Source of the DNA: an uncultured Ignavibacteria bacterium
GTDB taxonomy: Bacteria; Bacteroidota; Ignavibacteria; Tepidaquicellales; Tepidaquicellaceae
DNA length: 47,388 bases
Assembly: GCA_937872315.1 (NCBI GenBank)
Contig: CALMST010000247.1
Span: forward strand, 1-47,388
Direction: 5' to 3'
Shown here: positions 2,513 to 39,300 of the stretch, piece after piece
How positions within the stretch are numbered: the first letter of the stretch is position 1
Layout: every line of letters starts with the position of its first letter
The notes under the pieces: generated by a model
The model's input: only the letters and a program-made list of their open reading frames with translations
Database searches by the model: none
What the model was told of the DNA's origin: nothing
Translations under genes and position numbers: made by a program

Positions 2513-3136
2513 ATGATTATAAAACCATTTTACCGAAGAAATCTTCCTCATTTTCAAAGTGAAAACTCATATTACTTTGTAACTTATCGTTTATATAATT
2601 CTTTAAGCAAAAAGATAATAGTAGAACTTAAAAATTATTATCTTCAAAAAAAGAATTTTCTTTTAAAGATCAATGATCCGCGGATCAGATCTGAAAAAAT
2701 ATATGAACTTCAAAAAAGTTATTTTGGAAAATTTGACTATTATCTGGATACAAATAAAGAATGCATAAATTATCTATCCCATCCGGAAATAGCAGGTATA
2801 TGCGCAGGGTCAATGAAATTCCTGGACAAGAAAGATTATGAACTTATTTGCTATAGCATAATGCCAAATCATGTGCATATGCTGGTTTATGTAGAACGGT
2901 TTTTAAAACCGTTCTACAAGACCATGCAGTCAATAAAGAGATTTTCTTCAAGAGAATCAAATAAAATTATCAACAGGCAGGGAGTTTTCTGGCATGAAGA
3001 GAATTATGACCATATAGTCAGAGATCGGGAAGAATTAAACAAAATTATTAAATATATAATGAATAACCCGGTAAAAGCAGGTTTAGTTAATAATGCTGAT
3101 GACTGGAAATGGCGCTTTCTGAAAGAAGGCTGGTAA
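2513..3136 (+). CDS. REP-associated tyrosine transposase (RAYT, Y1/IS200-like)
   Basis: This is a 207-residue single-strand DNA transposase of the HUH/Y1 class. The metal-binding HUH motif is H120-V-H122 in IMPNHVHML, and the likely nucleophile is Tyr165 in the ENYDHIVRD block. It ends with the family-typical YIMNNPVKAGLV. These proteins cleave and join hairpin REP sequences and are usually single-copy chromosomal genes rather than self-mobile insertion sequences. The reading frame is complete. Two perfect palindromes accompany it: one inside the gene (2891-2917) and one that contains its own stop codon (3134-3158). There are no IS-like partner orfB and no target-site duplications that I could see. 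Family assignment is firm; whether it is active is unknown. Confidence 0.9.
   Translation: MIIKPFYRRNLPHFQSENSYYFVTYRLYNSLSKKIIVELKNYYLQKKNFLLKINDPRIRSEKIYELQKSYFGKFDYYLDTNKECINYLSHPEIAGICAGSMKFLDKKDYELICYSIMPNHVHMLVYVERFLKPFYKTMQSIKRFSSRESNKIINRQGVFWHEENYDHIVRDREELNKIIKYIMNNPVKAGLVNNADDWKWRFLKEGW
2891..2917. repeat. Perfect 27-bp palindrome inside the transposase gene
   Basis: Two 13-bp arms (GTAGAACGGTTTT and its exact complement) flank a single central T. It lies within the transposase reading frame, just after the HUH motif, and encodes part of VERFLKPFYKT. A perfect palindrome this long inside coding sequence is not expected from protein constraint. Confidence 0.85.
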
Positions 3137-3158
3137 CACGGATTTTAAATCCGTGTTA
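3134..3158. repeat. REP-like palindrome spanning two convergent stop codons
   Basis: Two perfect 12-bp arms (TAACACGGATTT and its complement) surround one central T. The left TAA is the stop codon of the transposase, and the right TTA is the reverse-strand stop of the pepP gene. It could act as a hairpin in both transcripts, as a REP-type substrate of the neighbouring transposase, or both. There is no downstream T-run, so a classical intrinsic terminator is less likely. Confidence 0.85.
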
Positions 3159-4487
3159 CTTACTTCCCATTATCTCCTCAATCTCCCCGGTCTCTTTTTC
3201 CAATCCCTCTGTCAGATTCTCATACCCTCCCCGCTTCACAAGTATATCATCCTCAATTCTTACAGCTATACCCCAATATTTCTTTGCAATATCTTTCGAC
3301 CCCGATGGGAAATAAAGCCCCGGCTCGATTGTCAGTACATTCCCGGCTCGCAAAGTATCATTATCCTCATATACGGTCTTACCGTAACTGACCGCATCAT
3401 GAGTATCAAGACCTATATGATGACCTAAACCATGTAGTGAATATTTTCTGATTAATTTTTTATTCTTCAAAATTCCTGCTTTAAATAAGCCTTCCGCTAA
3501 AATTTTCTCACTCAGATCCCTTAAAGAAGAAAATCTTATTCCGGGTTTGATTTTCTTTATACATTCTTTATTGGCTTTAAGAACAATATCATAAATTTCT
3601 TTTTGTTCCTTTGAATATTTTCCGTTTACCGGATAAGTTCTTGTAATATCTGAACAATAATATTCAAACTCAGCTCCCGAATCAATTAAAAGAAGATCTC
3701 CGTTCTTTAATTTTTTATTATTTGAATCATAGTGAAGAATGCAGGCATTCTCACCACCTGCAACAATCGGGCTGTATGCATTATCACTGCTACCGTTTAC
3801 TTTATACTGATATTCAAGATTTGCCTGAACCTCATATTCATAAATTTCCGGTTTGATCTTTTTCATTGTGTCTTTATATGCATTGACAGAAATTTCACAG
3901 GCTTTTTTCATTTCATCAATTTCATATTTTGTCTTAACAGATCTCATTACACCAAGCAAAAACGAAGCATCAGCGATTTCTATATTTGGCGCAATTACAT
4001 TAAGTGAATTTAAAAAATCGGAAATTATCCTTTTAATTTCACTTCCTAGTGTAATCATTTCAGCAAAGTTTATATAAAGTCTTCTGAAATTATATATGTT
4101 TCTTGAACTGAGTATCTTTGAGAGTTCTTCATTCACAAAACCATGATCAATATCCAGAACACGTTTTACATTATTATAACCAAGTCTCTTTCCATCCCAT
4201 GTCTCCATTATCTGATCCTTTTTCTGAACAAAAAGTGCTTCATTGAACATCCTGGATACTTTACCGGAATTAATTTCAAAACCGGAAGGGGCAATTACCA
4301 GAGCTGAATTAGGTTCAGTAAAACCTGTAAGGTAATAAAAGTTTTTACTTTGTTTGAAATCATAGCTTCCGTCATGTGATTTATTTCTGGCAGTATTACC
4401 AAAGATTATGGAGAGAGAATCTTTCCCAAGCAATTCTGCATACCTGACTCTTCTTGATTTATGAAATTCTTTTTGTTCTTTAGTCAT
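3156..4487 (-). CDS. pepP: Xaa-Pro aminopeptidase (M24B)
   Basis: This cytoplasmic metallopeptidase removes N-terminal residues that precede proline. The N-terminal half is the creatinase-like domain (KNFYYLTGFTEPNSALVI). The C-terminal pita-bread domain carries all five metal ligands in family contexts: Asp in LLIDSGAEF, Asp in CSDITRTYP, His in LHGLGHHIGLDTHD, Glu in LTIEPGLYFPSG and Glu in VRIEDDILV. At 443 residues it has the usual PepP length. It starts at an ATG and lies 32 nt downstream of purF on the same strand, so the two are probably cotranscribed. Its stop codon sits inside the 3134-3158 palindrome shared with the convergent transposase. Confidence 0.93.
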   Translation of the reverse strand: MTKEQKEFHKSRRVRYAELLGKDSLSIIFGNTARNKSHDGSYDFKQSKNFYYLTGFTEPNSALVIAPSGFEINSGKVSRMFNEALFVQKKDQIMETWDGKRLGYNNVKRVLDIDHGFVNEELSKILSSRNIYNFRRLYINFAEMITLGSEIKRIISDFLNSLNVIAPNIEIADASFLLGVMRSVKTKYEIDEMKKACEISVNAYKDTMKKIKPEIYEYEVQANLEYQYKVNGSSDNAYSPIVAGGENACILHYDSNNKKLKNGDLLLIDSGAEFEYYCSDITRTYPVNGKYSKEQKEIYDIVLKANKECIKKIKPGIRFSSLRDLSEKILAEGLFKAGILKNKKLIRKYSLHGLGHHIGLDTHDAVSYGKTVYEDNDTLRAGNVLTIEPGLYFPSGSKDIAKKYWGIAVRIEDDILVKRGGYENLTEGLEKETGEIEEIMGSK

Positions 4488-21136: not shown

Positions 21137-21167
21137 AAGAGCAGAAGTTTAAATAACTTCTGCTCTT
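21137..21167. terminator. Bidirectional intrinsic terminator
   Basis: A perfect 13-bp stem (AAGAGCAGAAGTT and its complement) has a 5-nt loop (TAAAT). T-rich sequence follows on the plus strand and A-rich sequence precedes it, so it can serve both the secreted-protein gene and the convergent E1 gene. Confidence 0.9.
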
Positions 21168-32140: not shown

Positions 32141-32365
32141 AATTTGTTTTTAAGCAAACTAAAAATAGTAATATAAAAATGTTAGTCTGAACGATATCAA
32201 TTCTGCCGAAAATGTTTTTAAAAAAACCAATAAACTTTTTTTGTTTTGCACAATAAATATAAAAATAAACATATATCAGAATTCATTGTGAAAGCAATTT
32301 TATATATATGAATATATTTTAAACGGTCAGCTTTAGTAAGTTTACTTAAGTTCACCGCTTATGAT

Positions 32366-32480
32366 CAACAGCAACTGATAATAATTTTTTTGCCACGGAT
32401 TAGCATAAATTATCACGAATTAAATTCTTACAAATAAAATTAATTTTACTTATCTGTGAAATCCTGGTTAATCTGTGGCT
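32366..32480. repeat. Dispersed palindromic repeat, copy A
   Basis: GCCACGGATTA (32392-32402) and TAATCTGTGGC (32469-32479) bracket a long imperfect inverted repeat. The block from 32366 is clearly related to 39154-39258: both have CAGCAA, then AATAATTTTTTTGCC, then AAATTAT, and both end in ATCTGT and GTTAATCTGTG. It is non-coding. Confidence 0.75.
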
Positions 32481-32481
32481 A

Positions 32482-32509
32482 ACCGGCAGTTTCGAAAGAA
32501 TCTGCCGGT
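32482..32509. repeat. 8-bp perfect hairpin
   Basis: ACCGGCAG (32482-32489) pairs exactly with CTGCCGGT (32502-32509) around a 12-nt loop. It follows repeat copy A and lies about 135 nt before the S9 peptidase gene. There is no T-tract. Confidence 0.6.
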
Positions 32510-32643
32510 AAACTTTGATGCTACATATAAATTGTTTTGAACAGATATGTGAAAATAAACTGAAATTTATACATTTAGACTAAAATAAAATTTATAAAAA
32601 GATTATCTTATCCATTATTTTTTATAATTAAAATGCACCCATT

Positions 32644-39047: not shown

Positions 39048-39126
39048 GCCACATACTACCAGAATTCACACTAATTATTTTCAGGATTAATTTTTTGAAT
39101 TCTTGTTAATTCGTGAAATTTTTGGC
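39048..39126. repeat. Dispersed palindromic repeat, copy B (degenerate)
   Basis: GCCAC at the left end and a related GGC-containing right end bracket AT-rich sequence with GAATTCACACTAATT facing AATTCGTGAAATT. It has the same layout as copies A and C but is more diverged. Confidence 0.45.
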
Positions 39127-39153
39127 AGCCTTAATTTCAATTTTGGAAGCTGT

Positions 39154-39258
39154 CAGCAGCAATTGAACAATAATTTTTTTGCCGCGAAACAGCACAAATT
39201 ATATATTCTTTAAATTTATTTTTTGTTGATCTGTTAAAATCCGTGTTAATCTGTGACC
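39154..39258. repeat. Dispersed palindromic repeat, copy C
   Basis: This non-coding block is clearly related to copy A: both have CAGCAA, AATAATTTTTTTGCC, CAAATTAT-like sequence and the end GTTAATCTGTG. It contains AAATCCGTGTTA, the right arm of the palindrome at 3134-3158. Copies B and C fill most of the 297-nt gap between the two cupin genes. Confidence 0.75.
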
Positions 39259-39300
39259 ATATGGCAAACAGACAGACAACTTCAGTAAATTAAAAATAAA

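Follow-up and report, generated by a model that had tools for sequence, protein, structure and literature searches.

Results

The window, by which we mean the whole 47,388-nucleotide stretch of DNA analyzed here, contains a plus-strand gene (positions 2513–3136) for a REP-associated tyrosine transposase (TnpA-REP, or RAYT) of 207 aa, with the HuH motif NHVH and the tyrosine motif YIMNNP. On one side lies a minus-strand gene for a UvrD/PcrA-type helicase (50–2290), an open reading frame that we named from its sequence. On the other side lies the convergent, minus-strand gene for the Xaa-Pro aminopeptidase pepP (3156–4487), with the domains PF00557 and PF05195; its best NCBIfam match was PRK10879, at 310.6 bits and under the model cut-off of 465. 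The RAYT passed NF047646, the NCBIfam equivalog model for REP-associated tyrosine transposases (82.2 bits against a cut-off of 80), and matched PF01797 at 34.9 bits. It scored 24 bits against the IS200 model, below that model's cut-off of 55. The protein has the Y---NP motif of the class 2 Y1 HuH core, and residues H120, H122, and Y181 are invariant. Its AlphaFold2 model had a mean pLDDT of 88.5, and the sole PDB match at E ≤ 0.001 was 4er8, a RAYT with a bound REP hairpin. Compared with the sister species, the gene had a dN/dS of 0.11 and is therefore under purifying selection.

At the junction of the RAYT and pepP lies a perfect inverted repeat (3133–3159, GTAACACGGATTTTAAATCCGTGTTAC), a double-foot REP-type palindrome of the form GTAACACGGATTT-T-AAATCCGTGTTAC. 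An earlier note on this DNA had described exact arms of 12 bp. The arms are indeed exact, but they measure 13 bp around a 1-nt center, as the outer G3133–C3159 pair had been omitted. The same note correctly placed the TAA of the transposase and the reverse-strand TAA of pepP at the ends of the palindrome: the RAYT stop (3134–3136, plus strand) falls within its GTAA foot, and the pepP stop (minus strand, read 3158–3156) falls within the opposite foot. The gap of 19 bp that it gave between the genes is also right, with the two stop codons separated by positions 3137–3155. Perfect hairpins of this kind are scarce in the window, where we found three (arms ≥10 bp, loops ≤5), compared with 0.73 per dinucleotide shuffle. 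Two of them are REP-type palindromes (3133–3159 and 2891–2917), and the third is terminator-like.

The second REP-type palindrome, absent from the earlier note, lies inside the RAYT gene (2891–2917, GTAGAACGGTTTTTAAAACCGTTCTAC), in frame and past the HuH motif. Like the first, it is double-footed (GTAGAACGGTTTT-T-AAAACCGTTCTAC), with 13-bp arms and a 1-base center. The two are identical in build and share 21 of their 27 bases; the remaining six make up three base pairs, each of them compensated. Each has a GTAG-like foot, which reads GTAG in the gene and GTAA at the junction. These downstream and in-gene copies are the only ones at the locus, with no hairpin of the same type upstream of the RAYT. 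The in-gene copy encodes VERFLKPFY (residues 127–135), which in the predicted structure is the loop between the HuH strand (120–127) and a helix (134–152). Three RAYT homologues from other phyla (L044–L046) carry an in-gene hairpin at the same position and in the same frame with a different core (GTAGAGCGAAG...), which in L045 encodes VERSGTSLY. Judged from these sequences, the structure of the in-gene hairpin is conserved while the protein sequence varies.

The earlier note held that many intergenic copies of the hairpin would support a REP family and that an absence of other copies would refute one. When we searched the whole genome for the junction palindrome with up to three mismatches, we found no second copy; the same search in the sister species returned one copy. 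Taken alone, this result would have suggested refutation. However, it was overturned by a search with a degenerate family consensus, GTANNACGG-N9-CCGTNNTAC, which returned exactly four exact copies at three loci in the 4.56-Mb genome (a draft of 386 contigs, with copies counted by pattern search). Other copies therefore do exist, though not “many.” An exact-copy search can evidently miss a REP family whose stems have been altered by compensated pairs.

Two of the four copies are those in the RAYT gene and at its end (2891–2917 and 3133–3159, the latter an exact match to the consensus). A third, at C340:11310, has the same sequence as the in-gene copy and ends an Fe2+-trafficking gene (PF04362) with its TAG. 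The fourth, at C252:90243, sits in frame within a non-ribosomal peptide synthetase (NRPS) gene, in the linker that joins the condensation domain to the AMP-binding domain. Three of the four have a TAA in front on one strand (GTAAGTAR, extended to AGTAAGTAR at 3133–3159). The arms of every exact consensus match were complementary even at the positions that the search pattern leaves as N, although the pair count included sequences picked as palindromes and the percentage paired is thus not independent. In the sister species, copies occupy the same four places, with one mismatch in the in-RAYT copy. By contrast, the end of the PF04362 gene carried no such hairpin in any of the 28 other relatives in which we read it, and copies have therefore arisen at new places. 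The family is dispersed in the genome as REP families are, but its four copies fall far short of the abundance of such families, which often exceed 100, and for this reason “repetitive” is a stretched term here.

Two explanations unrelated to the transposase were weighed against these data. That the palindrome arose by chance between two tightly packed genes is scarcely credible. Perfect palindromes do arise in AT-rich DNA (0.17 per shuffled window with arms of at least 12 bp), but chance does not lead us to expect three related copies with compensated stems elsewhere in the genome, or a sequence identical at 27 of 27 bases in the sister species despite a synonymous divergence of ~0.4. This conservation is itself only mildly striking because the adjacent uvrD-RAYT spacer is already 89% identical; for the 19 intergenic bases, p was ~0.11 by the spacer yardstick and ~2e-4 to 3e-5 by synonymous sites.

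The second explanation, a bidirectional transcription terminator or 3′-end RNA stabilizer serving the convergent genes, is better placed and still distinctly unlikely. The palindrome sits between convergent genes, the typical position of a terminator, and RNA from both strands folds well (−29.5 kcal/mol, z = −4.65, and −27.3 kcal/mol, z = −2.69). As single-stranded DNA, it also folds, at −12 kcal/mol (z = −8.4). However, a T-tract is absent after the palindrome on both strands, and a terminator scan did not detect 3133–3159. We rejected a standard intrinsic terminator, a GC-rich stem followed by a U-tract, for want of that T-tract. Termination also fails to account for the matching hairpins within the RAYT and NRPS genes. 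The remaining perfect hairpin of the window offers a direct contrast, as it has A- and T-tracts and was detected by the scan on both strands. This 13-bp hairpin (21137–21167), in a gap just past the end of a minus-strand gene, is a typical bidirectional terminator. Still, the junction palindrome may have a secondary role in guarding RNA ends.

We also followed the word CGGATTT/AAATCCG, which the earlier note had seen recurring in non-coding repeats elsewhere in the window. It occurs 26 times in the window compared with 10.4 expected, and the observation is literally true. Yet the repeats in question are a ~190-bp MITE-like element rather than copies of the hairpin, and it is this element that accounts for the word in non-coding DNA. 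We saw ~10 copies of it in this genome, including those in the window at ~32330–32520 and ~39120–39290 and others at loci L124–L126, L129–L132, L142, L150, and L151. Short inverted repeats (AAGTTKACCG / CGGTMAACTT) form the termini of the element, and a GCCACAGATTAACACGGATTTTCACAGAT stretch lies in its interior. A separate array (L153, G000:C277:347–716) consists of four units at 123-bp spacing with CACGGATT and a “GTCATCCCCGCATGCTCTTAGCGGGGATCC” stretch between units.

It is very improbable that the junction palindrome is a fragment of this MITE-like repeat, or that both descend from a common older repeat. The two share a 13-base word, TAACACGGATTTT, and the 12-mer TAACACGGATTT has seven exact genome copies outside the palindrome. 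However, the other three copies of the hairpin family (ACGGTTTT and ACGGAATT) lack the word TAACACGGATTTT, and the ~190-bp copies lack the inverted partner, the GTA-foot, and proximity to the RAYT while having terminal inverted repeats of their own. CGGATT-N-AATCCG sites besides 3133–3159 were rejected as mostly chance matches in which the foot is absent.

Relatives provided a wider view of the locus. In two of them (L172 and L173), uvrD adjoins pepP without a RAYT, which is the gene order of an empty site. In a genome from a more distant genus of the same family (G413), an orthologous RAYT, 50% identical, lies between the same neighbors. In G413, two CACGGATTTGTAATCCGTG hairpins in tandem separate the RAYT from pepP, one of them containing the pepP stop, and the consensus had 18 matches vs 4 for a control pattern, indicating a larger family. 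The REPs of G413 are often accompanied by another hairpin of a different type (AAACCACT...AGTGGTTT or AAACCGCTTAAGCGGTTT) in a composite, BIME-like pair, as at loci L211, L226, L232, L238, and L244.

Across RAYT homologues more broadly, 8 of 106 had a hairpin that overlapped the stop codon, compared with 9 of 585 other ORFs (Fisher p = 0.0017), and 6 of 104 had one after removal of this locus and that of the sister species (p = 0.016), both tests being uncorrected for kinship. Hairpin density within genes, likewise uncorrected for kinship, was about five times higher in RAYT homologues than in other ORFs (0.36 vs 0.067 per kb). A comparison of the hairpins inside and beside the gene at 13 RAYT loci gave a far better match within a locus (16.2) than between loci (9.4; 0/500 permutations), again uncorrected for kinship.

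Other hairpins were encountered near related genes. Two further Y1 transposases encoded in the same genome as the RAYT (L011 on G000:C316 and L012 on G000:C6) have a common downstream hairpin, CCGCAACC...GGTTGCGG, that differs from that of the RAYT and is apparently a second REP family. In a further relative (L247, G410:C11:144310–144896), three identical 27-nt double-foot palindromes, GTAGCACAGACTATCAGTCTGTGTTAC, lie within 600 bp with further CACAGACT hairpins near them, possibly another REP cluster.

Discussion

Taken together, these sequence comparisons lead us to conclude that the palindrome at 3133–3159 is very probably a low-copy, double-foot REP and the cognate hairpin of the adjacent RAYT, the pair making up a small REPtron of the kind seen in subclass 2.4. 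The earlier note had proposed that the palindrome might be the enzyme's own REP-type substrate. The hairpin inside the RAYT gene, the family of four with one member at another stop codon, and hairpins that match within loci and differ between them all argue for that proposal. Its core is well supported by the existence of a family and the within-locus match, while its suggested link to the non-coding CGGATTT repeats falls away.

How such a pair might work can be sketched from known RAYTs, which are our guide for recognition, cleavage, copying, and movement alike. The RAYT would recognize the GTA-foot together with the ACGG...CCGT stem on single-stranded DNA, most likely the lagging-strand template, and would cut beside the hairpin, where C3159–T3160 would suit the CT cut of known systems. 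Cutting would permit copying of the hairpin or its insertion at another site. The foot reads GTAA/GTAG on both strands, so that an in-frame copy at a gene end gives a TAA or TAG stop, and at the RAYT/pepP junction the palindrome provides both convergent genes with one. For the same reason, a REP that lands at a gene end can be harmless.

A different function for the hairpins is unlikely, though not negligibly so. They could serve mainly for control in cis, in which the RAYT would bind the copies that its own gene or mRNA carries internally and at the end, and so hold down the expression of both itself and pepP. The family, low in copy number, would then have been shaped for stop codons, with the TAA or TAG of the foot making insertion at gene ends harmless.

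If the pair is indeed a RAYT and its cognate REP, it offers a compact, testable REPtron in the Ignavibacteria, a poorly studied lineage. Since the family has only four copies, relatives can provide an empty site for comparison with each insertion.

Among described systems, the closest is TnpA-Y1 subclass 2.4 (Bertels group 4), for which Quentin et al. 2018 (PMC6006769) report double-foot REPs, REPs that interrupt tnpA between the HuH and Y motifs without disturbing the frame, and members in Bacteroidetes as well as other phyla. Like that subclass, our RAYT combines NHVH, YIxNNP, a length near 194 aa, and a double-foot REP, and its gene carries a REP (2891–2917) at that same position, again with the frame kept. 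Of the subclass motifs NH[IFV]H, WQ, and YIxNNP, it has NHVH and YIMNNP, but its W motif is FWH (WH rather than WQ). The in-gene copy is a strict match to the subclass foot GT[AG]G/C[TC]AC (GTAG/CTAC), and the copy at 3133 is a variant (GTAA/TTAC). Unlike in subclass 2.4, there are only four copies and the upstream REP is absent; the placement was made by motifs and anatomy rather than by a tree of labeled references.

Resemblance to the GTAG-tagged REPs of Di Nocera et al. 2013 (PMC3733652) is also close. Those REPs favor convergent and unidirectional gaps, and their termini often give the TAG stop of flanking ORFs. Ours are likewise short, RAYT-linked palindromes that prefer sites downstream of genes and whose termini often give stops. 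By contrast, here two convergent genes, one of them the transposase, are ended at once and by TAA, and the copy number is very low. Nunvar et al. 2010 described RAYT genes as always flanked by two inverted REPs, and in this respect our locus differs.

The E. coli TnpA-REP (4er8) is the closest solved structure, and its hairpin has a GTA-type foot as ours does, but the E. coli REPs are single-footed with a bulge in the stem, and the system belongs to a different subclass, 2.2. The E. coli RAYT cuts at CT next to the hairpin and GTAG is crucial there, while other RAYTs tolerate changes to the foot (PMC8266576). IS200/IS605 elements share the Y1/HuH core (PF01797) but differ in that our RAYT is a single-copy gene, has no tnpB seen adjacent, and falls below the IS200 model cut-off. 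The GTAA foot, the four copies, and the lack of an upstream REP are features of the present case's own. Still, because the RAYT, the in-gene hairpin, and the double foot match published descriptions, the case fits a known kind of element, of which it is a clear new example rather than a new kind.
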